64,000 bases of DNA from Tubulanus polymorphus. Its lineage: Eukaryota; Nemertea; Palaeonemertea; Tubulaniformes; Tubulanidae. Within the stretch, counting starts at the first letter, position 1; the number at the start of each line of letters is the position of its first letter. Below the pieces are notes generated by a model, which did not search any database, was not told where the DNA came from, and saw only the letters and a list, made by a program, of their open reading frames with translations. The position numbers and the translations under genes were made by a program. The stretch lies in assembly GCF_964204645.1 (NCBI RefSeq), contig NC_134027.1:11582485-11646484 (forward strand), written 5' to 3'. This document shows, in pieces, positions 6,297 through 47,500 of the stretch.

Positions 6297-6719
6297 TTAA
6301 AGAATTAAACAACCGCCTTTCTTTTTCTTCTTGGTCTGCAAGGCGGCCCGCGTAGCCGTTTCGAACACTCCGCGTACGCCCTCTTTTGTTTTGGCCGAAC
6401 ACTCCAGATAGCCGAAGGCGTTGATCTTCTCCGCCATAGCCCGACCTTCCTCCGGGCGAACAGGTTCTTGTTTCATTTTCATCAGCTCTCGTTTCGTGTT
6501 TTCGTCGTTGCGCAGATCTTTCTTGTTGCCGACCAGAATAATGGGCACATTCGGACAAAAGTGTCGCACCTCCGGGGTCCATTTCTCGGGGATGTTCTCT
6601 AAACTGTCGGGACTGTCAATCGAGAAACACATTAAAATCACGTCGGTATCCGGATACGAGAGCGGTCTCAAGCGGTCGTAGTCTTCTTGCCCGGCCGTAT
6701 CCCATAGAGCCAACTCGAC
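6297..6719 (-). CDS. Rho1: RhoA-type small GTPase, distal alternative terminal exon
   Basis: This exon encodes residues 53-192 of a Rho-subfamily GTPase. It opens after a minus-strand acceptor (TTTTAG at 6720-6725) with [17 protein letters not shown], which contains the switch II glutamine Q63. It continues with GNKKDL (guanine specificity), the Rho insert helix ([22 protein letters not shown]), [10 protein letters not shown], a lysine-rich stretch and the CaaX box CLIL (geranylgeranyl type). It is phase 0 and 423 nt long, the same as the proximal exon at 16767-17189, and joins exactly to the N-terminal exon at 23073-23228. The result is a 192-residue protein, close to RhoA's usual 193. No N-terminal exon of its own was found between here and 16767. 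It therefore works either as an alternative last exon of one gene or belongs to a partial duplicate. The insert region and tail are closer to vertebrate RhoA than those of the proximal exon. Confidence 0.85.
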
Positions 6720-8173: not shown

Positions 8174-8393
8174 GGCTAAACAAAAATGATACCTTGTTTC
8201 TCCGCAGCGGCCGGGTCATTTTTGTAAAATATGATAATATTTGTAAACAGTTCATTTCTATAGCGGCCGGGTCTGTTATGGTAAAATTGATCACGATTTA
8301 AAAAAAAGTAATGTATAGGGTAGATAGGCGGCCGGCCGGGTCAACATTTAAGCTCAGCAGAGCGGAGAAACAAGGTATCAATTTTTTTTAGCC
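8174..8393. mobile_element. MITE with ACCTTGTTTCTCC ends, copy 1
   Basis: The 220-bp element has inverted ends. The left begins GGCTAAACAAAAATGATACC and continues CTTGTTTCTCCGC. The right is GCGGAGAAACAAGGTATCA followed by a T-run and AGCC. It has interior GCGGCCGG-rich blocks. Removing it restores the LINE reading frame across the insertion site, showing it inserted after the LINE. The target-site duplication is unclear (at most 1-3 bases). A second copy is at 17292-17498. Confidence 0.8.
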
Positions 8394-10249
8394 TAATACT
8401 CAAATATTCCATGAACTTGACTACAGAATAACTGAACGCGAAATAATCGAAGCAATCAATAAACTTAAGAATAACAAATCCCCGGGGTTAGATAGCATCA
8501 CCAACGAATTACTAAAATTTCGACAAGAGGCAATTTCAAAAAGCTTACTACAAATCTTTAACCAAATCTACAGTAATGGCATCTTCCCAAGTTCTTGGGC
8601 CCAAGGAATAATAACACCCATCCATAAAGGGGGCGCGCCCAATAACCCGGATAACTATAGAGGTATAACGCTGAACAGTTGTCTAGGAAAGCTATTCTCC
8701 TCCATAATCAATAACAGACTTGTCTTTTTAAATATCTATGCAATAATAAAATTATCAATAAAAACCAGATAGGATTCATGCCAAATGGCAACACCTCTGA
8801 CCATATATTTACGCTAAAGACCATCATTGACAAGAAATTGCTGAAATCATAAAAGCTATAACATGTTTTATTGATTTAAAACGAGCATTTGATTCCGACT
8901 GGCACGAGGGACTTATGCATAAGCTAAACGATCTTAATCTTGGGCAACACTTTCAAAACATAGTATCTAGCATGTACTCAAAAACAACCTGGTGCCTAAA
9001 AATTGGTACCAATATAACGTCTGAAATGTATCCCTCAAATGTGGGAGTAAAGCAAGGTGACATACTTAGCCCTATCCTCTTTAATATTTTCATAAATGAT
9101 GTGATCGATATATTTGATGAGTTGTGTGACCCTGTTCAATTACATAACTACCTCATAAATTGCTTATTATACGCTGACGATATCGCTTTGATATCTGAGT
9201 CCTAAAAAGGACTCCAACGTTGTCTGGATAAACTATATACATATTTTCAGAGGTGGAAACTTGAAGTTAACATTAATAAAAGTAAGGTCATAGTATCTAG
9301 TCGAAAGGGTAACATTCAAGTGACCCTAGACTTTAAGTACGGCAATCTAGCATTAGACATTGTGAAGGAATACAAGTACCTCGTTATAATTTTTTCATCA
9401 GACGGTGTTTTTAACAAAGCAAAGGTCCACCTGGTAAATAATGCTAAAAGAGCCATGTTCTCAATCCAAAAACTTATCGGTGCGGGTAACTGCACCCCAG
9501 AAGTATGTGTAAAACTTTTCGATAATTTGGTACACCAATTTTATTGTACAGCTGTGAAATTTGGGTCCCCTCAAAGCAACTCCTTAGGAAAATCTCAAAA
9601 ACGGATGTCTTTAATATTGAATTAGCGTTTGAAAAAGATGACCACCTTCAGAAACTATTTACTTCCTTTTGTAAATATATACTTAATGTTACACGTCGAG
9701 CAACGAACATGGCTGTAATTGGTGAACTCGGTAAATACCCACTCTATATAGCTGCTTGTGTGAGACTCCTGAAATTCTGGCATGCTGTGCACCAGAAACA
9801 AGACAAATTGGTGTACCAAGCCATGCAAGAGTCAATCCTGTTAAACTCTACTTGGTATAACTTCCTCGCAAAATTTGCTAGCATCCTTAACCATTCAGAA
9901 CTGATAAAGAATCCATCTAATTTTAAATCTTTTACCCGAGCTAAACATACATTACAGGAGAGTTATAAATTTTTTTGGCACAAATGGATATCAAATTCCC
10001 CAAAACTAGACTGCTACAAAAATCTAAATCCTGAATTTACCATGACGCCATTCTTAATGGATCCTATACTACCAAAACTGTTTAGAACCAACATTTGTAA
10101 ATTAAGGATAAGTAATCATCGTCTTTTGATATGCTAACGAGGAAGATATGCTAATTTGCCGAGAGAGAATAGACTGTGCCAACACTGTAATGCCATTGAA
10201 AATGAGTTTCATTTTATAATAGAATGCTCTCGACTAAACGAAATAAAGC

Positions 10250-16766: not shown

Positions 16767-17189
16767 TTACAAAATGGCACACTTCTTGCCTTTTTTCTTT
16801 TTCATTTGCAGCGCCGCCTTTGTAGCCGTTTCGAAAACCTCGCGCACGCCCTCTTTGGTTTTCGCCGAGCACTCGAGGTAATCGTACGCCGAAATGCGGT
16901 CCTTCATGCCGCGGCCCTCGTCGAATTTCACCGTCTCCTGTTTCATCTTCGCCAGCTCGCGTCGCGTGTTCTCGTCGTTGCGTAGATCTTTCTTGTTGCC
17001 GACCAGTATGATCGGAACGTTCGGACAAAAGTGTTTCACTTCGGGAGTCCATTTCTCGGGGATGTTCTCTAAACTGTCGGGACTGTCAATCGAGAAACAC
17101 ATTAAAATCACGTCGGTATCCGGATACGAGAGCGGTCTCAAGCGGTCGTAGTCTTCTTGCCCGGCCGTATCCCATAGGGCCAACTCAAC
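16767..17189 (-). CDS. Rho1: RhoA-type small GTPase, proximal terminal exon
   Basis: This exon encodes residues 53-192 and follows a clear minus-strand acceptor (TTTTCGCAG ending at 17190). It starts [17 protein letters not shown] (Q63), then GNKKDL, the insert helix [30 protein letters not shown], a lysine-rich stretch (MKKKKGKK) and the CaaX box CAIL. The length of 423 nt is identical to the distal exon at 6297-6719. Phase 0 joins it to the N-terminal exon 23073-23228, 5.9 kb upstream, giving a 192-aa Rho. The first 140 nt are nearly identical in DNA to the distal exon. The later half differs at many sites, including [10 protein letters not shown] in place of [10 protein letters not shown], and in the CaaX box. 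Rho GTPases cycle between GDP and GTP states on the plasma membrane and drive actomyosin contractility through ROCK and formins. The GC-balanced sequence downstream (16050-16740) is probably 3' UTR. Confidence 0.88.
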
Positions 17190-17291
17190 CTGCGAAAATA
17201 GAACGATAAATATGCGTCAAACAATCGGTCAAAAAAACCCAACCAGCTTTTAGTATTTTTTCCTGGTACAGTCAATTTGGTCCGTAGCTGG

Positions 17292-22672: not shown

Positions 22673-22976
22673 TGATGTTTTGGTAAAACTAGTACTAGGC
22701 TTCCATTTAATCCATCAAAAGCAGGCCGAGTACTAAATGACGTAGGTAGCGATTTTATTTTCAATAAGTGTTCGAAAAGTGACATGATACTGCTGCTGAC
22801 GAAATACTTATCACAGCCTGTACGGCATTATGCCAGGAAAAGTTAGCTCGTCAAGATACATTTACGATCCGGCAATAACTAAACTAAAGATCATCTGGCA
22901 ATACGGAGTGGAGAAAAAATCATTTACGGCTGTACCTTAAGTTTGGTGCACACTAGATTTTCAAAAAATAGGATTA

Positions 22977-23300
<324 letters not shown>

Positions 23301-26090: not shown

Positions 26091-27264
26091 TAACTGATGA
26101 TTATGATTAAAACCCCTGCTATATTCTATCAAGATTAGTGGAAATGATTGATGATTAACTAACAAAATCTAATTGTCAATAGGCGTTCAGTATTTAATAA
26201 TATGGAGTATTTTAATTTCGACCGAACACGGTCATGTGATCGTGGCCAGCGCTGATTGGTCGGTGACTTTTCAGTTCGCTTACACTTGCTTCCTGGTTCG
26301 CGATGTTGTCCTTAGGTTTTTAAGCATTTTAGACAGATTCGCAGCAGGTAACCGCGATTTTCTGGCATTTTCTTTAAAGGAAAATGATGCTCGTGTTTTG
26401 ATCAGTCGCTTTGTTTTGTTCATTCGGACAGATGATGCGAAAATTTGCCATAAATAGATGACGTGTACTAATTTTCAATTCAATTAAAGTAATTTTATTG
26501 TTGCAAATCGTTCTCCTGAATTATCTAGGTAGCGTCTTTTGGCTGATTGCACCTGAATTTTCTATATTACTGTTTTAACTGTTAGCAGCATTATTTCTAC
26601 AATGAATTTAAACCTTATTTCGAAAACCGTAGGCATAGCCAGGCCTACTTCATTTATTATTATTAATTATTGGGTAGATGTTAGGTAAGGTCCTCTTAAC
26701 CGACTCATATTGACTGCCTTGACTTAGAAAACTATTGAAAAATAACTAAAAAATCTGAATTCTCAAATGAGAGTGTACGCGTAATGCTTTCCCACAGTGC
26801 TAGTGTTGCTAGCTCCTGAAACAACTGATTTTATATAGGCCTAACTACATGTAGCTTTTCCCTAAGCTACCTTATAGTAATAAACCGTAAAGCCTCACCT
26901 AACCCTAAACCCTCTTGATACTAACCCTTCTGATCTTCAGACTTATTTTCATTGGTTGAAAAAGCCGCCATTTTGTGTATGACTCAGTTATAGGATCTAA
27001 CATTTAGGCCTACCCATTTATTGCACAGCCACTGCACAGCGCAGGGACTTGTCAGAATTGATAGTGAATGAATAAAACCAGTATTAACGACCAACTCCAG
27101 TATGGGTGTATAGAGCCTATGCAATTGCAGGGATACTGGTACCCCTATCATTGGTCTCGTACATTAGCAAGCATGACAAGTCCATGTGATTTATTGAAGC
27201 CTAAATCATTTATAAATATGTCTTGACTTGTTTGGTTTATGCCTTAGGTAACCAGTGAAAAACC

Positions 27265-30200
27265 ATGAACTACCAGACATTACCAGCTTTATTACTGCTT
27301 TTGTTTGTATGCACCGGATTCAGTGAAGACGCCGTCATTAAGAAATGCGAAGTATGCAAAGAATTGGTGAAGAATTTCAAGGCGGTGAGTAGACATAATG
27401 CGAAGCTTATTCTATCAAATATGTTAGCGAACATATCAATTTTCATGTTTTCAAATATTTGCCAAATCAATTCCCTTAACCAGGCCACCCAATAGAAGCT
27501 GATAGGCTACACAATTTTATTTTCAGGCATTAACATATAATTTGATAATGGCAGAAATTTTACTATAGTAAAGGGTCTATATAAATGGGCTTTGTAATTC
27601 TTTTTAAAGATATGCTCTGCATCTTTTCATATCGGCCTATAGCTTTGTATTCTTAGCTGAGGTATTAATTGACGCCTTATAAAACGTTATAATTATGAAA
27701 CCTTAACAATGTTAACCATTCAGCGTCATTTTACAAACGACAACTGTAAATCGATGTGCAAAATGTCACAGGTCTGTGTGTACACATACAAGCTATTTGG
27801 CAAAATATTATTGACAAATATGTAGAATGTCTTCCTGTGATTATATAATGAGCCCCATTTGAACGTCGAAATGTCATATTGCATTGAATATCATTAGAAG
27901 ACGTTTTGTAATAGTAAAGGATGTATGATTATATCAGAAGCGGCAGGCATAAATAGAAATAAATGAAGAAATCCCACACTTCGAATTTAAAGTTATACGA
28001 TCAAATCTATTATTATGCAACCACAACGTTTCAGCTGTTGACTAACAGCCATGATCAGGTGGATTTCACTTCCATTTCATCATTCCACCTGATGATGGCC
28101 GTTAGTCAACAGCCGAAACGTTGTGGTTTCATGATAATAAATTTGATCGTATAATTCTAAGTGTGGGATTCTTTGACTCAATCTTGGGTCATTTGACAAA
28201 CATGTGAAGTAAAAATTATATGAGAATTCAGTCAGATAAAAACCTGTCACAATTCCTTTAAATTCGAAGTGTGGGATTTCTTCATTTATCTACAGTATAC
28301 ACGGATTATAGTGTCTATTCGAATACTAATAAATAAAAATGATAAGTAAATCGGATTATTCGGTTAAAATGGCGGATGTTTACATGATTTTGAAGTCTGA
28401 TATAAATGTTAAACCCTGACATGGGGATGCTGGTAGAATGACGAAGCTATCTACGAGCTGTGTAGGGCCGGCGTGAATTTTATCGGCGACTACAAGCGGT
28501 CAATATAAAAATGTGTTACATGTGATTTCAATATTCAAATGTTTTAGAAAATATGTTCAATATTAGGGGTATGCAGGTTTCTTGAGATTAGCAATTTATG
28601 ATAGCATAGCTATGATAATAGTATAGGCCTCTGGTCAAAGCCTAATAGCCTATAGAGCTGTGGATTTAACCCCCTGTCGCACTGGGTGGGGCCTTTATTA
28701 AGGATCAGGCAAATTAAGTATAGATTTTCCCCGGCATGCAGCCAGTAAGTTACATAGCTATTCTTGGATTTGATCCCTTATATCCCATTGATCATTGGGT
28801 CATTGGATAAAGGAAGCATAATACCGGTAATGAAGTTAAAGAGTAACAAAGTTAACATAACACAGCACTGCTGTGTCAGCTGAAATGTTGTTTGTTTAAA
28901 GATGTTTTAGTTTGGACTCTGGACGATTCTTAGGGTACCGGTATATCAGACTAATTATAACCATAATCTATGACTAGATTTGTTTGTTGAATGCAGAATG
29001 ATATTCTTGCAGGGTCTACAGCGAACATCCAAGTCTAATTTTGGAGGCGGTAATACTGACTGGGAGGAAAATAGATTGGGTAGCTTTGCCACCAGGTAAG
29101 AATGTGAAAATAATGGGATACTGGCAAGGCTACTGCGGGAAGTGAGGGAATCCGCAAGGATTGCTAGTGGCACTGTGGGCTGGCCCTTCTATTTCATTTA
29201 CATTTCATTTAAATTCGAGTCAAATTTTCCGATGGTAAATCAATTTTCAGTGAAATCAAAACCATACGCTGAATGAGAAAGGCAATCTTACCGGTATATC
29301 TATCCAATAATTTGCTTGATAATTTTTGCATTTGCAAGCCTTAAAATTCAAGTTCAAAATTAATCGAAAATGAACTGATTTTCACTATATGAGTAACCCA
29401 GTGTTTTGTTGCGCCATCTGGTGTTGCTGGTATCCTATTGAGCGTAAAAGTAATCACAAACTGTTGTTTAGATGAATACATTTTATTCAAACATTTTTCG
29501 TTTTTTTTTCAGCGAGACTCGATTGATAGAAATTACGGAAAATATATGCAGTGGTACGACAGATGAAAAGAAGGCACGTATCGGTTAAACTTTGAATGAT
29601 CGAATTCACTTTCGCGGTCAATTTTTGTGTCGAGTTGAAAGAGGAAGTTGGCGTATTTGACATACTCGGGGATTGAAAGATATTTAGAAGTATATGCGCG
29701 CATAAACCAATAATCCCAATAGTGGGTGATGTCATTATAAGCCAATCAGATTTGCGTTTCAGAGTGCCTGGTTCATATCTGTCCAAGAATTTGCCCATGC
29801 GACCTGATTGGGAGAGGGCCAAAAAAAGTTTCTGCAAACAAGCTGTGCAAACAACAAAGCTTCGATAACGTAATAATTATCATTCAGATAAGACAAAGAG
29901 GCTGCTGATAGTTTATGTGGTTTTATTAGTAAAAACTAAAATGTTTCAATTAGCTAGGCAACTATCTTAACTTTGACGATTTCATAACAAAAAAGTCTTA
30001 GCGCTCATCCTCTAAGAATGGGCTAGACGCTAAGCAAGAACCAAAAAGTTTTCCGAGTCTCCCATTTCTAACGCACATGCATGAGGAAGTGCTGGAAAAT
30101 TCGCTAAGCCCCGAGAAAACAGTAGTGCGCAGGCGTCACTACATGTGGGCCCTACGTGTGAACTTTGTTGAGTCCAGCACTTACTAATGCGAATGCATTA

Positions 30201-33200
30201 GAGACAGAAACTCCGGAAACTATGGTTTTTGCAGACACTAAGTCAAATTATGGCTCCTTGCCAAGTGTCTGATGATGATGAAAAAATAGCTTCATAGCTG
30301 ACGTTACAGGCCTACGGCTAGGGGTTCATGCCACGGCAGAGATTCACTGTACAAGGGTGGATGGATACCAGTGAACTCCACTCAAGTTGAGAAATTTGTG
30401 TCCTTCTTAAGTGTTCCGAGTTGATTTGATGCAACTGGAGCTGAGTCCACTCTTAAGGGATGAATGACCCCTTATCAAACTGAATAATTTTTTGTGTATG
30501 TCTGTTTGTTTTAGTGTCACCATATGATGGAAAACGAGGAGGAAAAAATTGAAGACTGGTGGAGAAGAGAATTTTCTAAGAAAAAAGATGCAGTCGACAA
30601 TTTTGAAAAGTGGCTGTGCCAGGATGAATTGAAATGTAAGTCATTTACCAGTAATTCGACACATATGCTGCCAGTTCTGAGTCGTCTTTATACTTCTGCC
30701 AATGTTGGTGGGTTCTTTATGGGCATCAAAAGCAGTGAAAATAACAGTGCGTTGTAAAAGCTTTTAAAGGCTTTGAAAAGCAGTGAATATGGTACGTGAA
30801 AAACCTCACATTCATTATGCATTCAACCCTTAAGCAAATAGTGGAGGACTCCTGTTATATATTGAATTAACCGAATTGCAGAGCTCATTCGTTGTTGAGT
30901 TAATAAAGTCGCTAAACGAAAGGCCGATCTCCCTAATGAATGCTGCTATTGTGTCATGAATGGGTTAAGATATTAGTTAGATTTAGGAACAATTGATGTC
31001 GGTTATAGAAATCCGATGAAGTCCATTGGCTTCTTTACAGACTGTTGCCCTGATAATCATTTCGGACCCGATTGTGGGCCGTGTATTGGAGGAGTCGCGA
31101 GGCTTTGTAACGACAATGGTAAATGCGACGGCGGTGGAACGCGATCCGGTTCTGGTAAATGCAAGTGCGATTCGGGTTACAAAGGCGATATGTGCAACGA
31201 GTGTAAAGATGGTTATTACGAAGAAAGCAAAAACGATACGCATATATCATGCAAAGGTTAGTTCGAAAGTCCCACGATTAATGATATTTATGATTCACGA
31301 TTATCTGATGGTTTCACGATTTACCTATCGAAATCCTATGATATGTAATCCCAAGACCATTAGATAATTCACTATGAATATCATCAAAAATACATTAACC
31401 ACTTATTAATAAAAGCCTGTAAACCACCCATCTTTGGTGGCAAATAGCACACAAATGAATAGTCGTAAAAATATGATCTTGGTAACACTGGTTTCGGCTG
31501 GCTTTCCTCTATTGAATCATTAACTTAATAAAACTTTTTATGCATAGTATTCCTGTCCTCTTTATGTATTTTTGATATCATCAATTGTGAGAATTTCATT
31601 TGTCAGTACATGTCATTCAGGGTCCCTATGACTCCTTGATTCCTTAAAGAAAACTCCTCCTAAACACGAAATGCTTTTAAAGGTGCTTGAAACTCTTTTA
31701 ATTCGAGAAAATTGATCTTCAAAAGTTCTTGAAAACTCCTTCAATTTCGAGAAATAGGCAATTCAAAATTTTTGTCTAGTTTGTAGTTGGACAATAAACT
31801 ATGCCAAAATCAGTACAGGCAGGATTTGTGTTCACCCAGTAAGGCGGTTACCGAATTAGAAATCGAGTTTAGGAAGTATGAAGGATAAAATTGTTTTATG
31901 AAACTATCGAAATTGTGGTTTACCGAGATAAACAATACCGATATAGGAGGAGTCTACGAGAATATGAAATATTCGAAATTTTCTCCTTCAAAACTCCTTA
32001 TACCCAGGAATGACTGATCCTGTAGGGATCCTGCTATTATATGGCTTTTGTGGGGTTTTTCTTGTGTCATAAACATTACCTTCGTATCTCAATTGTCTTT
32101 TATTGATGTAAATGGTGTATTAGCTGTTTATGCCATTCATTTGGTTTCAGTTTGTCATTTATCCTGTAAAAACACGTGTTCAACCGATGGTCCAAAGGGA
32201 TGTGACGACTGTCGCGACGGTTACGTGAAATCGGAAGCCGAAGGCTGTTCAGGTAACGACTCTACACACAAAAGCATAATCTGATATGCCATTGACAGTT
32301 TTTGTAGCGTTTTCAAGGTGTGAATTTCCTTTTGCTTTACAGATATCGATGAATGCAAATTACAAAATCCGTGCAAACCGAATCAATATTGCAGTAATAC
32401 AGTTGGGTCATACGTATGCATGAGTATGTATATTTTGAAGCGCCATGGAAGAAAATCCCTTCTTAAAATATTTTTCATTATACATGTATTTGTTCGCTGT
32501 TTATTGTTTCACGTAGGTTGCGACAAAGCTTGTGAAACGTGTTTGGGCAGTGGCGCGGAAAGTTGTGTGAAATGCAAAGTAGGCTATACTATGGAAAATA
32601 ATACATGCGTTGGTATGTATTTATTATTGCATTTGAGGTCTCTACAGCACCCTGGGGTTGGATGCTCAAAAGTTGGTTGACAACACGGCGAGTGCCAGCT
32701 GCGAATTAACCCATACTTCCGTTTCTGTCACCGGTGCCGGCTACGAATGTATTTGTAGAGATTCTTCATATTTACAATAAGATATTTGCACTTGTGTACA
32801 CGGGAATGACACAGTTCCTGATTGGCTGGTGATATGAACAAACTCTGTTCATTGGTAAATTTTGAGCAAAGGCTGACTATATAACAGCTCCAGTGCCAAG
32901 CAACAAGTATATTTGTGTTGCACTAGGGGGGCAGCACCGTATAATCAAGCCGACAGGCAATGTGTTATAGATAACTGGCAGATAAATACCATAGCAACAA
33001 TGAACATTGCATTGTCACTGTGTCAACTATCCAGTGGTTAAGTCCAACCAACTTTTGAGCAACTGACCCCTTGTGGTCAGTTTACCAGGTCTAGTATGCA
33101 GACCTAGTATTCGGTAATATTGTGATATTCTTCTTATTTCATAGATGTAGATGAATGTAAACTGGGAACGTATACATGTACCATGGAGCATACAGTTTGT

Positions 33201-34421
33201 TCGAATAAGCCTGGCTCCTATACTTGCAAATGCGAATCGGGCTATGAATTTATCGGGGATAAATGCGTTTCGAGGGATCTAAGTAAGTAAATCATTGATC
33301 AGTGGTTTGGTAATGAATGAGAGCGAATGCGAACTTAAGTGCCCCGTGTTCCATGCCCTGAAACCCTGTTTGATAAAATTTGATGTCAATACCAACAGTT
33401 GCAAGTTAGATTTCACTACGGGAGGTTAAAATCATTAGCAGAACTCTCCGTTCCGGGCAACCTTGTTACTGCACATTAAAAAAGCTGAAATAAAAAAGGA
33501 TTGCTTACTATCAAATAACAGTTGACATTGCGTACCTGAGATCCCTAGAAAAAAATTTATGACCTCTTCGTTTTATCGTTGTATACAACTTCCGAGTCAG
33601 ATGAATGGCAATTTTTGGATTATGAATGAACTGATTTAGAAAAAGATTTTCTGGCTTCTTAGGTAAAGTTCGAATGAGGCAATCAATATGTCATTGCATA
33701 TGGTTCTTAAGTATGCAGTATGCAGCGTTGACTGTAGAAGTTTTTTCGCTGTTTCGATAGTAAAATTGTCTTTTTAGGGCCCCTACGACTTCTTGATTCC
33801 TTAAAAACTCCTAATCGGAAAATGCTTTTTAAAGGTGATTGAAACTCCTTTAATTTGAGCAAAATGCCAGAAACTCCTTGAAAACTCCTTCAATTTTGAG
33901 AAATAGGCATATTATAAATTTATAAATCTAGTTTGTAGTTAGTTGTACAGTAAACTATGCCTAAATCGGTACAGTTGGGACCAGGATTTGTTTTTACCCA
34001 ATTAAGGGGAGATAACAGAACCGATTTAGAAGGAGTCTACAGTAACTAGGATATGAAAGTGATGCAGACGCTTCCTCGAAATTTGAAATTTTCTCCCACT
34101 CCTCATATCCTGGAATGACTGACCCTGTTATGTATATTGTTATTTTTTCGCTGATTGGTTGTCTATGATTGTCCCATTCGTTTCACAGTAGCGAACGCTG
34201 ACCAGATCGGCAAACAGCCGGGAAAATCTTCACAGCAAGCGAAGAGGAAGAAAAAGAAGTCGGATAAAGAAGTTCCACCTTATACAATGCATAAATACGC
34301 GGCCGCGATAGTGCTATTCGGATTGACAGGAAAATTTTTGAACGGACACCTCGTAGGCTCATCTTTACTATGTTTGACAATGGCCTTTTTTATCTATAGA
34401 ATTGGTTCCTATTACGGTTGA
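27265..34421 (+). CDS. CRELD: CRELD, cysteine-rich protein with EGF-like domains, membrane isoform
   Basis: Exons by splice signals and phase: 27265-27384, 29013-29095, 29513-29573, 30515-30635, 31041-31256, 32151-32252, 32343-32423, 32517-32612, 33145-33282, 34189-34421. The joined frame gives 416 aa, near human CRELD1 (about 420). The N-terminus is a signal peptide (residues 1-20) followed by a CxxC pair (KKCEVCKEL, C28/C31). Next come the family's GGGNTDWEE block, IEDWW, and CCPDNHFGPDC, then furin/EGF-type cysteine repeats. Two calcium-binding EGF starts, DIDEC (exon 7) and DVDEC (exon 9), follow. Exon 10 adds a lysine-rich linker and two hydrophobic segments (YAAAIVLFGLTG, SSLLCLTMAFFIY), as in CRELD1. 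The family acts in the ER as a chaperone or disulfide-handling factor, for example in acetylcholine-receptor assembly. Intron 3 appears to use a GC donor (AAG then GCACGT). AATAAA at 34717 suits a 3' end for this form. An alternative last exon lies at 36493-36581. Confidence 0.9.
27957..28291. mobile_element. fold-back element in CRELD intron 1
   Basis: The outer inverted ends are AATGAAGAAATCCCACACTT and its inverse near 28258-28288. Nested inside is a long hairpin with arms at about 27975-28068 and 28084-28168, containing CACAACGTTTCAGCTGTTGA and CAGCCGAAACGTTGTGG. The ACGTTTCGGC/CATCATCAGG pattern is shared with the fold-back insertion at 49507-49786. It is non-coding. Confidence 0.7.
31618..32022 (+). 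mobile_element. TIR repeat with CAGGGTCC ends, copy 1 (CRELD intron 5)
   Basis: It begins CAGGGTCCCTATGACTCCTT and ends GGAATGACTGATCCTG, short inverted ends enclosing about 405 bp. The interior has AAACTCCTTCAATTTCGAGA and GGAGTCTACGAGAATATGAA. A direct copy is in CRELD intron 9 (33776-34127) and an inverted, interrupted copy is in an Sfmbt intron (49423-49860). Confidence 0.65.
33776..34127 (+). mobile_element. TIR repeat with CAGGGTCC ends, copy 2 (CRELD intron 9)
   Basis: Same orientation and order of blocks as 31618-32022: AGGGCCCCTACGACTTCTTG, AAACTCCTTCAATTTTGAGA, CCGATTTAGAAGGAGTCTAC, ending GGAATGACTGACCCTG. It ends about 60 bp before the acceptor of the membrane-type last exon. Confidence 0.65.
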
Positions 34422-36492
34422 TTCGGTGTTGATATTTATACCGGTGAATCTAGTCAGTACTGAATTGTTATTTTCTTCTCCGAACTTTAGCGATAAAGTT
34501 TTGTGAAAAAAGAAGCACAAGCATTGTCGTTTCGATTTCGAATTTTGTGACTGGAGAGATAAACGATATCCAATGAATGACCAAAAGACATGTGTCTTCG
34601 TTTAGGTCATACACCTGGTACGATGGGATTCTGATTTATTGCTTGTATCAGTTTTTTTCCGACCGAGAAAATTTGTCTTACTTCAGTAACCGTATATCTA
34701 AATTCGTACTGTGTAAAATAAAAGTCTTCAATTGAGTGGGAAAAATATTTGAACAAATATCATCTCAATTGGTCAGATCTTACTTTGGTCAGAGGGGGTC
34801 ACCTGTATATTCATGTGTTTTATACTGTTTTGATTATGCTATTTACCTTAGAATTATGCTGGTATGACTCGTACATGTGTAAATGTGTGTGATTAGAATT
34901 GTCTTCCTCCAGACCGTAATGTACATGATTGTCGAATTTAGGCCCAACCGTAGTTTTTGGGAGGATTTTGTTAGTGAATCATGTACTGATCATCACCGAT
35001 AACCAACCTTGTATCAAACATACTGCTGACCTTATGTACGTATTATCAGCTTGTGTGTATTGTTTGATACGAGTTGGACATATACAGTGTACAAATTGAT
35101 CGCCTGCTAGCAACAAGGCAAAAATTTACTGCTTTAAATCATAGATTTTGTTCTCTACAACTCCTTTTTGGGATTTTCAATTTATAAACATTGCAAACTC
35201 TTTGCTTTTTTATGCCCCACTCCCCCTTGTTCACATTGTACTAAACGCTTGCAGTCCAGAAACATAGTCAATTTATTTGCTGGATGTGCTAAAACAACAA
35301 TGGTGTTTAATTCATTGAAGTTCAGTCCAATGAGAACCTTAGTCTAGTGTGCCACTAACGGTAGTCAATGGTTCACACAAGCTCTCCAGTGCTGCATACC
35401 AGTGGCGCTACTTTCACGATTTTATTGCATCATTAGTTTAGCTAGTTTATCTATAGTTGGAGTATGCGTAACCCCTTTCAAAGGCCACTTGCGAGGTCTT
35501 CCACCATTGGTAAAAGATACTTTGAAAAATGGATCCGAAAGATGCAATTTGTGAGAAGATTATTGTCAGATTTGCAGGTTTTAACGAAATCTGTCCTGAT
35601 AAAAAAGGGCAACCTTCATGCTAAGGCAGTGTTCCGGACCCCACCCCCTTAATCCACCCCTGCTACAGCTGCTTAGTACTGGCATTGGACCCCATAGGAA
35701 GCCTTGAATTGTGAGCGCATTTGTCATCACAAGGCAACGTTTTTACCTTCAAGCGTCGTTTCCAAAAAGGTCCGGGTTTTCAGGAAATTGAAATGCCCAT
35801 AAATTCAGTCATGCTACAGGCCTGTATTTCATAGCTTTACACGAACAAAAAAAAAACAATTAAATCTAATTGAAAATCTAATAATTGAACTGGCTTTTCT
35901 GTATAAAATCCAAATCGGTAGGGGTGGAACAAAACGGTCTGTTTGTCCATAGGTTAGTTAGGAAAATGTGAGAATAGAACAGAGTATGTATTAGCAGTTT
36001 GAACGTAAATCATATCATATCAATCATTCAAAAGGAGAATCTCTCATTAGTTTTCTTTATCTGTGCGATTTTTATACTGATATACGCAATAAAAGAAATT
36101 TTTCTAAAAAAATTCATTTTGTTTTTTGTACATGGCTGGCCTGAAGAATGTTCTATTCTATTTCTTTCACAGTGTTTTCCATAGTATTGTATTGATTTAT
36201 TTTGGGATGATTTTGCATGATTTGGGGGTGTGTAATTTTTGTTTGTTTTGATTATATTTACAATTTTTTTTAAACGAATGAAGAGATTAGAATAAACATT
36301 CCTTTACATTCAAAGAGGGTACTAAGTCCCATTAATCCTGATCAAATCTATCGAGTTCAAATCTTTCTAGTTAGCTTATGAAAAGTGAAAAGATCCAATT
36401 TGAAGCCAAATCATGTAAAATAGATTCCAGTGAAAGAATGAGACAATAAGTTGTGAAGGAATGTTTATTTCTGATTTCTTTTCTGTTTGCAG
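34422..36492. other. between the two alternative CRELD last exons
   Basis: It contains the 3' UTR of the membrane form with AATAAA at 34717. The remainder would be intron for the KEEL form. No other gene seen. Confidence 0.5.
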
Positions 36493-36581
36493 ATGAAACT
36501 GAGGAAAAAAATAATACAAAGAAAGAAAGAAAAGCAGAGAATTTCGAGGAAGAGAATAAAACAATGAAAGAAGAATTATGA
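36493..36581 (+). CDS. CRELD: CRELD alternative terminal exon with KEEL C-terminus
   Basis: An acceptor with a strong pyrimidine tract (TTTCTTTTCTGTTTGCAG, ending 36492) opens an exon whose phase exactly matches exon 9 (one leftover base). Joined to 33145-33282 it reads DL-NETEEKNN, a Lys/Glu-rich tail, and stops right after KEEL. That is an HDEL/KDEL-like ER-retrieval signal in the place where vertebrate CRELD2 has REDL. The joined protein would be 368 aa, near CRELD2 (about 350), and lacks the membrane segments. Seen: acceptor, phase, stop and tail. Known: CRELD1 is membrane-bound and CRELD2 is luminal, and worm crld-1 is reported to make both types by splicing. Inferred: this locus makes both forms from one gene. 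The reading is only 29 codons, so chance cannot be excluded without transcripts. Confidence 0.72.
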
Positions 36582-36841: not shown

Positions 36842-36998
36842 CAGTAGAACCCGCTTAATTCGGATCATTTTGGACCAAACAAATTAATCTTATTTAAGGG
36901 AGATCCGCATTAAAAGTCATTTTCTTGTATATTAATGAAGAAATGGACTGCAAATCATGCCCTAATTAGACCAAAATCCGGATTAGCGGGTTTGACTG
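36842..36998. mobile_element. pogo-like MITE, family B copy 2
   Basis: The 157-bp element has ends CAGTAGAACCCGCTTAATTC and the inverse-type GATTAGCGGGTTTGACTG. TA flanks both sides (36840-36841, 36999-37000). Related to 13656-13826. Confidence 0.78.
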
Positions 36999-37000
36999 TA

Positions 37001-38000
37001 ATAACGAAGTAATGAGAACCAATTTTCAACAAATACTGAAATTCATCAGTTATATATTGCATCAATGGAATATACAATTTTGATCTCACGATGTACCTAT
37101 GAAGTATTTATTAAGTCTGCATCTCTTGGTCACATGTCAGTGAGTTAATACAGTAGACACTTCAATTTTATCTGGAATTTGATCTAATCAGATAATTTGT
37201 ATTACAGTAGACTCTGCTTGCCTCAGATCTCGCTCGACCAACTTATTCTCTGAAGTAAGCGAATTCTGGAGCAGGGGATGCTCGAGGCTACAGCTCTTAG
37301 GGGCTGGCTGCAGGTTACAGATTATCTGAAGGGGTGTTTCCGGGCTACATACGGTAAAACCAGAGGTAATGGGTTCTTGCCGCATGAATTAGTGTTTTAA
37401 GTAATTTTTCTGGGACATGTGATCAATGACTGCGTGGCTAGCAGAGTCTACTATATATTTATGGTCCACCTACAGTTAACATCAATGTTGGTAATATGTG
37501 ATGTTTAATGCGATTTCTTATGAACCGAATAAATTTCAACGATCCTAGTCCTGTCTACACTAAATTTTCGAAGTTTTCTTAGAAGCCGAATTTTATACCA
37601 TTTAAAAAAGAATATCTCTAATTCAAATTAGGTGTTGATTCGAGTAAGACAATGAAAACTTAGTTCATATTCTGTTGCAATGATTCTGAGATTTGTGATA
37701 GATCCCCTTAATCTAGACGAGGCATAATTAATTCATTGCTCATGAAAACTATTGTCTTCATTTCATCCCCGATTTCATCTTGTGCTATATTTATCTAGGC
37801 TGCTGTGCTCATCTGTTATTTTTCTAGTCTTTACATCATCAATGATTGCGCAACATCCGAATAAATCTGCAATATATATTTTAAATCGAAGTAGTTGTTG
37901 TCATTTATCAGTAGTTTCGGCATTAGAGTCAAGGTCACTTAAGTGTACCTATCTTGAATTTCAATGAAATACGATTAGGATGCTACAGGAGTCGTGACTT
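37001..38000. other. no gene seen
   Basis: Short open frames only. AATAAA near 37529 could be a late polyadenylation signal for the KEEL-type CRELD transcript, but this is not supported by anything else. Confidence 0.3.
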
Positions 38001-41594: not shown

Positions 41595-44500
41595 TCATTT
41601 GGCGAATTGTTCGTAAAATGCGATTTTCACGCGTTCGACTTGATGGCAAAGCTTGATCGCTGGTCCCAGTTTTAAGTCCATGTGCTCTTGAACTGTCGGC
41701 AACGTTAACAGCAACAAGGCTTGGCCGTCGATTTCCTATAGAGATAAATGATAATTTTTCTTCATCAAATACATTCGGATGCTCTAAAGTGCAATTGTAT
41801 CGGGCTTCTTGGAGTGTAGCTGTGGCAAGGTGGATGCATCAGGTTCGGCTTGCGCACTTCTATTTTCTTCTACTGTTTCAATCAAAATCGAAAGATCTTA
41901 ACTAGCAAGTGAATCGATGCAAGGCTAATCAATGAGAGCCCCAAGGGGCACTATGGCCAGCCTGTCGGCTATTTATAAATAGCAAATGAGGCAATGTGGG
42001 TTATATTTGTCAAAAGATACTCTCCCCGCTCAATATAATTTACACAGTTCAACAAAACAATACCTAACACCAATTAGAAAATTTAATTTCATATCTTTTT
42101 GGTGGCTCATATGTTGATATTTAGATCAGAGCCCAAAAAATCCAGTTGAAAGATGAGTTTGACGACGTAAAAGACCCAACCGATCGGGAGAGCTGGACAC
42201 GCAGGACACCATTTGTCCGAGTGAAATCAAACTTACATGTTCCTTGAAAAGTCTCGCGAAGTTAGCACAATCGGTTCCTTTAACGAATTGTATCACGTCT
42301 TGAACGCTCCATTCCAACGGATTTGTTTCTAAATACAGCATATCTTCGGGTTTCACCGGCTGGACATAGAACGGAAGAAAACAATACTAAACATATAGAC
42401 CTACAAATTTTCAATAGCCCACTGAGACTAGATGGACTAAAAAAGAGAAAGGTTTCCTCGATTAAGTAATAAATTTCAATGTTATGACATTATCCTGAAA
42501 ATCTTTATCAGACAATCAGAAATACTGGCAGAACTGGTAGATACTTAATAATGCGGAAGATAGCTACAAGAAGAAAACTATAGTCATAACTTAGAAATAA
42601 ATCATTAACTCAAGGCAACTTTTCAGACACTCCTTTCATTCCAAGTGCAGTATTGTTTACATTTCTATGATTTTTCAATTAAATATCATACATCATTTTG
42701 CCCTCAATTATCTGATCAATCGAATAAGTCATCAGTGCCAAAAACAGCCGATAATCAAGCGTGCACGAAAATACACATACTTTATAAGACTGACTAGTCG
42801 ACGGAGACTTAGGCGGTGGAATATCATTTTTCGTCAGCATGATCTTCTTATGCGTGCGGCGCTCGAACGAGAATTTCGGCAGTTTCGCACCGCGCGTTTT
42901 CACACCCGACGGCGGCGATGGCAGCGAGCGCAGGTAGCGGCGTTTCTTGCGCTTTTTCACGGCGGCCGCCGCGCCGCGTATGTCCGAACTGTTCGATTGT
43001 TTGCTCTCCGTGCTCTTGTTGTCGTCGTCGTCGTTGGCCTCTTGCGGCGTGCCGTCACTGTCGGCCGACGGTCGCTTCTTACGAAACAGCAGGTTCACGC
43101 GGCGCCGACGTTTGCCCGGTTTTTTCGGCCCATTTTCCAGGTTCGTGTGACCGCCCGGCGGCCGACCGATTTTCCTCTTTTTCTTCTTGCCGTAATAGTA
43201 CGCTGTGTATACAACAAAATACGAAATTGTACGAATCAAAAACATTTGGTGAACTAGATGGGCAGATTTTTTGGGGTTCGGAAGGTGCAAGTGATATAAC
43301 AACCTTATTCTGGCAACAAAGCCAGGAATCAGAAGGGCAACAATCTAGACCAGGCTAGGTTATCATACCTCTGATTGTAGTAGTTCTCACCAAAAATATC
43401 AGGAATTTGACAAAACGGTAGTTCAATTGAAAATGAAATAGATATGAACTAAAAATTTTATTGGTTTTGAGAGAATTTTGATACTGGGGTAGTTGAACTC
43501 TTAGAAAGAAAAGAAACTACTCTCAAATAGAAATCATAATCAAATCTGAATTTTCATTTTCATGCAATCTAAGGGCATTTTAAGCTAAACTATCTGAGGA
43601 ATAATTCGATCAACTCGTTTGTTTTTTCATCGCAATTTTCAGTAGGGCATTTTCAGCTGAACTCCCCCGAACACCAGCACCTTGGATCCACCACTGGGAG
43701 CAGACGTGGCCTTCCTCAGAAAATTTGCAAGAATTCAAGCACATTCTGAGATCATTTCCTCACATAAAATATAACTATATTCAGGGGGTGTTCTAAACTG
43801 TAATTGAACGTACTGTATTTGGTTTTAGTGAGCTGTGAGCAGTTTTCCGGGCATTCGCTGCCGACGTAATGAGGACCGAACATGTTTGGACAACATTCCA
43901 ATTTGATGCACATTTGTCGACAGAATTCCTCGATTTGTCCCGCGCTACGACATATTTCAACAATGGCGCGATAACTTTTGCCTTTATACCTGTGAATGCG
44001 AATCAGAAGAAATTACCTCGATAATACGATCAGTTCATGATAATTCAGACTTGATTTTCAACGATCTAATTATTTGCGAAAGGTTAGATTTTTCGTTTCT
44101 CCCATCGTTTGAATTCAAATCAATACGATCTTTACTTTTTATTTCTTCAGTACTTTCAAGATTTCATCCAGAAAATACTTGAATCAAAAAAAATTTAATT
44201 TTCATTTTTCTGTTTCCATTTTAAAATGTTTTTTACTTTTTCTGTTTCCCTGTTCCCATCCACTTTAAAATTTCCGTGGAAGTAAAAAAAAATTTCATTC
44301 TATATTTTTCCTAAAAAAAACCTGTATTCCAAAGACCAGTAGTTATACAAAGCCCTAAAACGTGTACACAGTATCCAGCAAGCACGTACTTCGCCTTCAA
44401 CATCTGCTGAAGCATCCGCGGATTCGGTTCGCCTTCGAGCTGTATCTCTCTAAGCACGCGACTCGACTTGTACGCGACGTTGATCAACATCGACAACACC

Positions 44501-47500
44501 TCTTTCATCACCAGTATAACCGGACCGGGCCCGACGCACTTCGGCAGCTCGGCGATACGACCTTTGCTGAGGAACGGTCCCGAAAAGCAACGATGGTTGA
44601 AATAGATTTTCGGACACCAAGCTCCGGTTTCACCTGAAAACGACACGGATCGGTTTACGGGTTGTAGTTGCGATGAACACCGCACGGAAACCGGTAACGA
44701 AATACGTACCACTATCGCCGTCCTTCATGATGTTAAAAGCCGTGTTTCTGAAGTCTTCTGGAGTGCAATGGTCACCTAATGAGCGCCTACAATGTAGGAT
44801 ACATTCTTCTAATTGAATACTTCAAATGAGTTTTTATTACATTATTACATCGATGTTCGCGATACCTATCATGATTTCTGGATTAAAGATCGAAAGGGAA
44901 AGGACAACTAATATGTTAAAACGCTCGCAACCTCTTAAGTCATGTACTATAAGGTTCAAATTTGTCAATTAACTTCTTGACACAAACGCCAACCTCTATG
45001 GGAAGACAGAGGTCTAGAGAATCCCACATTGATCGGCCCCTCACTATTTCACCATCGCACCGATTAGAGAGGGTCATGAAGTGGTTTTTGAGATATGGTT
45101 CAAGGTCATTTTTATAACCAACCACACCTTATTTTAATAATAATTTTGCATTCTTTAATTACGTCAAAAATAACACTTTGAATTACTGATTCATTCAATA
45201 AGAAAGTATGACCTCATTCTATTGTTATTTTATGTTACTAACGATGAATTTCTAGTTTAGATTAAACAAAGATGCTTTATAATTAATTATATGACTTGTT
45301 TATGTCTTCTGAAAAATATCGTGATGGAACAATGGCCACCGTGGCATTCTGAGACCCACTTATAAATATGACTTGAAGAGATTTTACGTACTCTGGTTGA
45401 ACGACAGCAATCTTCCGCCTGCGGAATCCTGCTTTTTTAGGTGGCCTCAACGGGTAGCCATTGCTTTCACACCAGCCGACTGGGAATATATCGTGCGAAT
45501 CGACGTCGACTATGTGCGTCGAGATCAGCTTCGACGAATTATCCAAGTGAATCCACATCAGTTGTCCGACGATTTTCGTAATCGTCGCCGCGCAAATCTG
45601 ATACGGCTGAGCCGGGTTGACGCTTTCTAATTTCATACCGCGTTTAAACTCGTGTTCGGTAATCTCCTACAAAAACACCCAAAAAAAGTCTCGGTCTTAG
45701 TTTTTTCGATCGACGTTAGAAAAATGGCAGAACGGGCGTAACTAATTTACCAAATTGAAGGCATCCTTCGGTGCTATATCCGCCTTACAATTCTGAATGT
45801 ATTCGTTCCAGTCGAAGTCCGAGTCCGGGCATCCTAAATCGAGTGAAACACGAAACACTTACTAAATAAATAACACATCCAGGGTGGAAGCTATTGGCTG
45901 TTTGTGCTGGCTCTTCTAACTTGTAATTGGATAACGAAAAATTCCACAATCATTAAAAGTGTATTCATTGAAATCGAATCCCATCTTTATAGAAACAGTA
46001 AACATTCATTACTATCTCTTCATAGAAACAGTAAACATTCATTCGGTTTCTTCATAGAAACAGTAAACATTCATTCTGTTTCTTCATAGAAACAGTAAAA
46101 ATTCATTCTGTTTCTTCATAGAAACAGTAAACATTCATTGTTTCTTCATAGAAACAGTGAACATTCATTACTGTTTCTTCGTTGAAACAGTAAACATTCC
46201 TGCTTTTTTTCATAGAAACAGTGAACATTCATTTCTGTTTCTCCCACCATGGGGTAAGATAAATCTTGAAACTGTCAGAAAAATATAATTTACAGGGGCG
46301 GATCTAGAGCTCAATTTTGGGGGGGGGCACCTAATAAATGTAGCTATGATGATACTGTATTGACACAAAGCGGCGTAGGCGCGAGACGTTCCTACGCTTT
46401 GCGCCTGCGGCGCGAAGCCCCTGCGGTGGTCTGGGGGTCCTTCTCACAGAAAATTTTTGAAATTTAACTTTGTTTTGGGGCCATTTCCTGCATTCTGAGG
46501 CAAGAATTCATGACGAATACTTTCCCCTTATTAAACTCTATGATAGCGTGGCGTTTATATTAAGCGAGTGGCGGGAGGTCGGTCGAAAAAAAACGATCTT
46601 CAAGTATTTTCTTCACGGGCCCCCTCCCTAGATCCGCGCCTGCTTTAAAGGTCAATGGAAGTACCCAATGGGCCTAAGGGATTTGACGCATTACAGCAAG
46701 ATTTGATGAGCTATTTAAATTCTGGATACAAAGAACAAAATGGTCATTACAAACAGTTTTTCCGATTCCCCAAGTTCATTGGAACAACAGGCCTGGATCC
46801 ACGGGGACGCTTTGGGTGCTAGAGTTCAAACATTTCTAAGTACATGTACTAGGATACGAGATGATCAAGCAGCACCAAAAAGCGCTCAGAATAAATGAAA
46901 ATTGGACTCATTTTTCACCATTTTCTTGGGGATGACTGGTTAAGACATCCCCACTTTGAAAATCCTGGATCCGCCCTTGAAAAAGGTTTACGAACCTTTA
47001 GGTGGCGTTATACGAATGCCTTTTTGATAGGCCCAGTTGACGGGGAATATGATCGGCGAATTCGCATGGCAGCAGATCCGTAACGGTTTGATGTCAGGTG
47101 TTAAATCGTCGATTTCGATTATGAAATAGATGTCGTTGATCACTTCCTTCACGGTGCCGGGGCAGATCTGATTGCGATTGATCGGGTGAATCACTTCGAG
47201 CTTCACCCCCGCCTTGAATTTATGGGGCTCCAGTTCATCCTGGTCCTGAACATAGAAGACATATATAATTATCATCGAGCGTGATTCAAATCAAGATTGT
47301 CGATGTAGCATTCAAAACTCGTAGAAGAACAAAATACAACAATAACCCGCTTAAAATACCGATCAGTACCGACCGATGAAATCTACCTAGAAATCCAAAT
47401 CGAGCATCGTTTTCTATAATTGGGCCTATTGGTAAGAACAGACTGTAATCAAGTGTGACATGTTGACTGTAATAATTTCAAGATGGGTAAGAATCAGCAT

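Follow-up and report, generated by a model that had tools for sequence, protein, structure and literature searches.

Vertebrates encode the membrane-anchored CRELD1 and the soluble CRELD2 in separate genes, and the locus described here, in a 64-kb stretch of Tubulanus polymorphus DNA (the window), raises the question of whether one invertebrate gene can supply both. The sequence-only reading had proposed that a single CRELD gene encodes both a membrane form like CRELD1 and a luminal form like CRELD2. The sequence supports this proposal well, and searches of the assembly found no second CRELD gene. We put the probability at about 0.86 that this gene, the only CRELD gene found in the assembly, gives rise to two ER proteins through alternative last exons. 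Common to every transcript would be a signal peptide, the WE (DUF3456) domain, which carries a CXXC motif, and domains of the cysteine-rich and EGF types. With both junctions in use, the exchange of last exons would yield either a membrane-anchored protein or a soluble one, the latter presumably retrieved by the KDEL receptor. At the level of sequence, the gene model, the phases, the splice sites, the KEEL end, the upstream ER stress response element (ERSE) and the lack of a detected second copy are evident.

The window carries a CRELD gene, as judged from its translated exons (Table 1), which encode WE (DUF3456), CXXC, cysteine-rich and EGF domains. DUF3456 matched the protein at residues 27–83 with an E value of 3.6e-10 and 40.8 bits, compared with a cut-off of 21.1. 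CEVC lies at the start of this domain and the N-terminus is hydrophobic (both by eye), as in the CRELD family. Pfam also identified EGF_CA in two stretches (2.2e-13; the position in Table 1 is that of the best one only) and EGF_laminin (2.3e-4). A search of solved structures gave six matches at E ≤ 1e-5, every one in the EGF part, and an Rfam scan of the 64-kb window gave no match. The CXXC motif on which a putative PDI-like isomerase activity would depend is present.

Table 1. Features of the CRELD locus, in window coordinates.
Feature	Position	Strand	Basis
Exact ERSE, CGTGG-N9-ATTGG	26241..26259	+	pattern scan
Inferred non-coding first exon, start arbitrary	26266..26347	+	splice consensus only
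Short upstream ORF (MLSLGF) in inferred 5′ leader	26303..26323	+	translation
Coding exon 1, hydrophobic N-terminus (signal peptide by eye), CEVC (CXXC)	27265..27384	+	translation
Coding exon 2, WE domain	29013..29095	+	translation; Pfam DUF3456 residues 27–83
Coding exon 3, WE domain, GC donor (gcacgt)	29513..29573	+	translation, splice letters
Coding exon 4, W/E-rich (EDWWRREF, KWLCQDELK)	30515..30635	+	translation
Coding exon 5, laminin-type EGF	31041..31256	+	Pfam EGF_laminin residues 151–195
Coding exon 6, cysteine-rich	32151..32252	+	translation
Coding exon 7, DIDEC..., calcium-binding EGF by eye	32343..32423	+	translation
Coding exon 8, cysteine-rich	32517..32612	+	translation
Coding exon 9, final shared exon, calcium-binding EGF, donor gtaagt, phase 1	33145..33282	+	EGF_CA residues 294–334
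Alternative last exon A, basic linker and two hydrophobic segments, CRELD1-like end, 77 residues	34189..34421	+	translation, hydropathy
AATAAA, likely poly(A) signal of membrane form	34717..34722	+	consensus only
Alternative last exon B, K/E-rich, 29 residues, KEEL-stop, CRELD2-like end	36493..36581	+	translation, scans

The coordinates previously given for exon 9 and the two last exons proved exact to the base. Exon 9 ends ...GAT CTA A, followed by gtaagt, leaving one base over, and exons A and B both continue its frame in phase 1. They had been said to accept this phase behind good acceptors, and this was borne out: at each acceptor, 13 of the 16 bases between −20 and −5 are pyrimidines, a count at least equal to that of seven of the eight other acceptors in the gene. 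Exon A is preceded by ...tttcacag and reads IANADQIG...YRIGSYYG-stop. Both of the hydrophobic segments attributed to it are present, the second clear (Kyte–Doolittle mean 1.73 over 17 residues) and the first weak (maximum 1.40 over 19 residues). When exon A was searched against the assembly, the single match was to itself.

Translation of exon B, whose acceptor side reads ...ttttctgtttgcag, gave NETEEKNNTKKERKAENFEEENKTMKEEL-stop (NETEE...MKEEL-stop), the Lys/Glu-rich tail ending in KEEL that had been described, with three N-glycosylation sequons. It has no transmembrane segment, and its end fits [KRHQSA][DENQ]EL, the PROSITE PS00014 pattern, as in a CRELD2-type isoform. Past the KEEL stop, an ATTAAA occurs at 36909 and the nearest AATAAA at 37528, 947 bases away; exon B itself contains a further AATAAA, at 36555. 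Reading past exon 9 into intron 9 gives LSK and then a stop (...VSRDLSK), and read-through was rejected as a source of the soluble form because this end carries no signal. Membership of the KEEL exon in another plus-strand gene was set aside, as inspection by eye showed no long plus-strand frame of any recognisable gene from there to the minus-strand frames at 42682–45666. A plus-strand gene of short exons would still fit.

No separate CRELD2 gene, or any second CRELD gene, was found when the 268-Mb assembly, which is possibly gapped, was searched with DUF3456, the shared part and exon A, and in this respect the locus corresponds to the single-gene type of worm and fly. The DUF3456 search gave eight matches, of which six exceeded the cut-off and fell at two loci with the appearance of canopy genes; below cut-off were the CRELD gene (18.9 bits) and C6:4094707 (17.1 bits). 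Since the known CRELD gene itself scores below cut-off, this search is weak for CRELD. The shared-part protein search gave 25 matches, eight of them at the CRELD gene; the 17 at other places all fell within the EGF part (query 195–267).

The ERSE is the sole exact match in the 64-kb window, where 0.12 would be expected. It lies 1,024 bases upstream of the ATG (start to start) and ends 88 bases 5′ of the donor of the inferred leader, for which consensus places the donor (CAG/gtaacc) at 26347/26348 and the acceptor at 27247/27248. A position near the inferred transcription start is, at this level, that of a CRELD2-type promoter, and the orientation matches that given for mouse Creld2. An ERSE of this form in the vertebrate CRELD2 promoter is acted on by ATF6; as with mouse Creld2, ATF6 and NF-Y would raise expression of the Tubulanus gene under ER stress. 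Exact ERSEs were also found ≈145 bases before the calreticulin ATG and ≈140 bases before the GRP94 ATG of the same genome, and one with a single mismatch upstream of BiP, so that two of these three luminal chaperones have an exact element and the third a near match; GRP94 was not a blind choice, having been picked after a nearby ERSE was noticed among 100 of 170 genome sites listed. Calnexin, two canopy genes and two other HSP70 genes had no ERSE at up to one mismatch in the stretches examined (0 of 5), outside of which the true promoter may fall for some of them. This gene set was small and hand-picked, further HSP70 and HSP90 matches being left out, and the identities come from the finding search and from frames read by eye.

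Exon B might be a chance frame in purine-rich intergenic DNA, in which case the gene would give the membrane form only, or additionally a short form ending in ...VSRDLSK by reading into intron 9, where a stop does follow after LSK. The exon is 60% A and 81% purine, and such DNA readily yields K/E-rich peptides; this bias toward K/E codons counts against our preferred reading, as do the distance from the KEEL stop to the nearest AATAAA and the weak first segment of exon A. However, the flanks are 51–52% purine, so the purine richness is confined to exon B, and the same arrangement is known in worm and fly. In a scan of both strands of the window for acceptors with at least 8 pyrimidines leading into a phase-1 frame that is 10 or more amino acids long and ends in [KRHQSA][DENQ]EL, one of 1,320 acceptor-like sites qualified, and this was exon B. 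Markov simulation under two models, 6 Mb each, with the same lax acceptor produced 6 and 3 matches (0.0033 and 0.0017 per 3.3 kb), or 13 and 9 (0.0072 and 0.0050) with a wider motif admitting xxDL ends, and none at the real acceptor score of 13 pyrimidines. A genome scan covering 148,105 bases, both strands and three phases, gave seven matches at four places, namely exon B and three gene ends, those of BiP (KDEL), calreticulin (HDEL) and one canopy gene (KDEL), with none elsewhere. The 148,105-base background includes overlapping loci (L003, L004 and L006 with L013; L005 with L014) and excludes L001, which is inside the window. The scan detects strict-pattern ends only; the KKTEL end of one canopy gene falls outside, and the GRP94 tail had no fitting end in the stretch examined. 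The single window site, the low expected rate and the restriction of the other genome matches to ER-protein ends make a chance origin unlikely.

Two further explanations are compatible with the two-exon layout. One concerns only the fate of the product: the KEEL form might exist but be mainly secreted, KEEL being weak or context-dependent; the protein would then be secreted as an inducible factor instead of residing in the ER. In Drosophila, addition of KEEL was insufficient to hold secBirA in the ER, which also weighs against our preferred reading, as does the different end of vertebrate CRELD2, (R/H)EDL. Mammalian CRELD2 is both ER-resident and secreted, and more is secreted under ER stress. 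On the other hand, Drosophila Windbeutel requires KEEL for ER retention in S2 cells and goes to the medium without it, and KEEL has been named as a putative mammalian ER signal (PMC8276033). In salivary glands mutant for the KDEL receptor, Windbeutel kept its location, so this receptor may not be the sole basis of its retention. We regard a mainly secreted product as rather doubtful. The other explanation is that the ERSE is a chance match, or serves not CRELD but the upstream neighbor, a divergent gene that by eye is Rho-type GTPase-like, with an exon at 22974–23300. Genome-wide, exact ERSEs are not enriched (170 in 268 Mb versus 174 for a reversed control pattern), and the neighbor is transcribed in the opposite direction. 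Against this stand the uniqueness of the site in the window, its closeness to the inferred leader donor, and the exact sites before calreticulin and GRP94, and we consider it unlikely that the element is unrelated to CRELD.

A single gene with two alternative endings has precedents. A likeness to worm crld-1 had been suggested and is correct: in C. elegans, one gene produces crld-1a and crld-1b by using either 9a or 9b as its last exon, and one product ends with two predicted transmembrane domains, the other with a short KDEL-terminated tail (PMC6245729). The isoform-specific ends are 70 and 25 amino acids in the worm, compared with 77 and 29 in Tubulanus, where the tetrapeptide is KEEL. Drosophila Creld (PA/PB) likewise makes forms with and without transmembrane domains from one gene by alternative last exons (PMC12448699). 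With worm crld-1 and fly Creld already reported, the two-ending Tubulanus gene is not a first. What seems to be newly described here, from sequence, is the combination of an exact ERSE with a CRELD1-type anchor and a CRELD2-type tail in one gene.

Vertebrate CRELD1 shares with the Tubulanus gene the WE domain, the EGF domains and, putatively, two C-terminal transmembrane segments, but is encoded separately from the luminal form. CRELD2 resembles the KEEL form in its soluble type, KDEL-like end and form of ERSE, but differs in its (R/H)EDL terminus and separate gene. In addition, mouse Creld2 is head-to-head with ALG12, whereas the Tubulanus gene has the Rho-type neighbor. In the open-licence literature, crld-1 with the unfolded protein response led only to PMC6245729, CRELD in molluscs, oysters, annelids, planarians and sea urchins had no mention among the matches listed, and nothing was found for CRELD2 with subfunctionalisation. 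Within the parts available, the word CRELD1 is absent from PMC6093884 and PMC3842181, consulted for its stress induction, and nothing on fly Creld was found in PMC4790953.

It is reasonable to infer subfunctionalisation behind the vertebrate CRELD1/CRELD2 split, and the ERSE found in the CRELD promoter adds weight to this view. More tentatively, a pre-vertebrate CRELD gene may have combined anchor and ER-retrieval exons with an ATF6-type promoter, duplication then dividing both ends and regulation. CRELD2 would have retained the retrieval tail and the ERSE, which in mouse Creld2 has the same form and orientation as in Tubulanus, and CRELD1 the anchor; in the single gene, the choice of last exon would set how a stress-induced foldase is shared between ER membrane and lumen. 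With the ERSE added, the vertebrate split can be framed as a concrete model open to testing, in which splicing and promoter were divided between the copies. Tubulanus adds another animal to the one-gene, two-ending layout of worm and fly, and if it lies outside their groups, the case for common ancestry of the layout is easier to make. Because CRELD1 variants cause human developmental disease and ER stress leads to induction and secretion of CRELD2, it is useful to know how the two roles were once linked.

According to PMC12448699, human CRELD1 has one EGF and one cbEGF domain that are missing from worm and fly CRELD. In the Tubulanus protein, a laminin-type EGF accompanies two EGF_CA stretches, so that by domain counts, unaligned, its domain set may be nearer to the human CRELD1 set than those of worm and fly.

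The CRELD gene was modeled with nine coding exons common to two predicted products, which differ in their last exon: exon A, encoding a membrane end, or exon B, encoding an end in KEEL. All introns were GT–AG, with the single exception of a GC–AG intron at the exon 3 donor (AAG/gcacgt); by eye, use of the GT four bases further would disrupt the frame. From exon 4 onward, each shared exon ended in phase 1. Pfam analysis of the protein identified DUF3456 (the WE domain), EGF_laminin and two EGF_CA stretches, and a CXXC motif (CEVC) directly followed the hydrophobic N-terminus. In worm CRLD-1 and mammalian CRELD2, PDI activity has been assigned to the conserved amino-terminal CXXC of the WE domain (PMC6245729).

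Features of the CRELD gene and its surroundings (window positions)
Feature	Position	Strand	Remark
Reverse-transcriptase-like open frames	970-2694, 8392-9622	+	by eye
Rho-type GTPase exon matches	6300-6719, 16770-17216, 22974-23300	-	by eye
Exact ERSE	26241-26259		CGTGG-N9-ATTGG
Upstream ORF	26303-26323		MLSLGF, six codons
CRELD leader, inferred	donor 26347/26348, acceptor 27247/27248	+
Common coding part	ATG 27265 to 33282	+	nine coding exons
Inverted repeat	27987-28160		intron 1
GC donor	29573/29574		closes exon 3
Direct repeat	31722-31772, 33871-33921		introns 5 and 9
Exon A	34189-34421		AATAAA downstream at 34717
Exon B	36493-36581		AATAAA within, at 36555; nearest downstream signals ATTAAA 36909, AATAAA 37528

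The donor of exon 9 could be joined through an intron of 906 nt to exon A or through one of 3,210 nt to exon B. The former adds 77 residues that include a basic linker and a pair of hydrophobic segments, for a predicted protein of 416 aa; the latter adds 29 residues, NETEEKNNTKKERKAENFEEENKTMKEEL, 17 of them charged, for a predicted protein of 368 aa. Three N-glycosylation sequons (NET, NNT and NKT) are found in this tail, and the last Asn occupies position eight counting back from the C-terminus.

Could an exon like B arise by chance? The two strands of the window together hold 1,320 acceptor-like sites, and just one of these, at 36493, is followed by a phase-1 frame that runs for 10 residues or more and closes with [KRHQSA][DENQ]EL. 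In 6 Mb of simulated sequence from each of two Markov models, order 5 (window) and order 2 (local), the laxest acceptor threshold gave six and three matches, respectively, or 0.0033 and 0.0017 per 3.3 kb, and with a wider motif the counts rose to 13 and 9. With the strict motif, one and zero matches were left at 11 upstream pyrimidines, and none in either 6 Mb simulation at 13, the score of the real exon B acceptor. A three-phase scan of 148,105 bases of the genome, a total that includes overlapping loci, found 3,129 acceptor-like sites and seven matches at four places, of which one was exon B and the other three were the ends of the BiP and calreticulin genes and of a canopy gene. The purine share was 81% within exon B versus 51–52% in its flanks.

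A DUF3456 search of the assembly gave eight matches, six of them above the cut-off, at two canopy-like loci; the CRELD gene itself fell below it, and there was one further weak match. The two canopy-type genes (L013 and L014) end in KKTEL and NKDEL. The shared part of the CRELD protein gave 25 matches, 8 at the CRELD gene and 17 elsewhere, all 17 in the EGF part, and exon A matched only itself. No second CRELD appeared in these searches, so that a CRELD2-like product, if made, should derive from this gene, subject to assembly gaps and search sensitivity.

The sequence-only reading had likened this arrangement to worm crld-1, and the literature bears this out. C. elegans crld-1 is reported to produce transmembrane and KDEL-ended forms via alternative last exons, a layout that Drosophila likely shares, with the two forms encoded separately by Creld1 and Creld2 in vertebrates (D'Alessandro et al. 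2018, PMC6245729); a 2025 paper states the layout for worm and fly alike (PMC12448699). The one-gene, two-ending layout is therefore already known, and the gene described here is a further case. Evidence that KEEL can act as a signal comes from Windbeutel in S2 cells, although this protein also kept its location when the glands were mutant for the KDEL receptor (PMC3799842); secBirA puts such a role in question (PMC6816556).

Upstream of CRELD lies the sole exact ER stress response element (ERSE) in the 64 kb, where 0.12 were expected. Genome-wide, exact matches numbered 170, versus 174 for a reversed control pattern. Since the element is rare and shows no genome-wide excess, it is the location of the CRELD site that constitutes the evidence. 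The mouse Creld2 element is written identically (PMC10018036); it is reported to contain NF-Y and ATF6 sites and to mediate the response (PMC3091781). Exact elements in the same orientation as that of CRELD were found at L012:4021, ≈145 bases before the ATG of calreticulin, and at position 1724 of the reverse complement of L015, ≈140 bases before that of GRP94, and BiP had a one-mismatch element (L008:5038) in the opposite orientation, 393 bases upstream. The examined stretches of five comparison genes (calnexin, two canopies and two other HSP70s) contained no such element. This distribution points to use of a vertebrate-type ERSE in the animal, with CRELD as a candidate for control by it. The inferred leader also carries a short upstream ORF, which might add translational control under stress.

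The proposal that the vertebrate pair arose by subfunctionalisation is consistent with what has been reported for worm and fly, and with the present gene. The ERSE adds that regulation, besides coding ends, may have been divided between the vertebrate copies. A search of the open-licence literature found no paper combining CRELD2 with "subfunctionali".

The inverted repeat in intron 1 has 77-nt arms, 90% complementary and 20 nt apart, and looks like a small foldback element. The copies of the direct repeat (51 nt, 84% identity) sit, by eye, inside longer similar stretches. The three Rho-type GTPase matches are perhaps a tandem array adjoining CRELD, and the reverse-transcriptase-like frames are probably LINE remnants.
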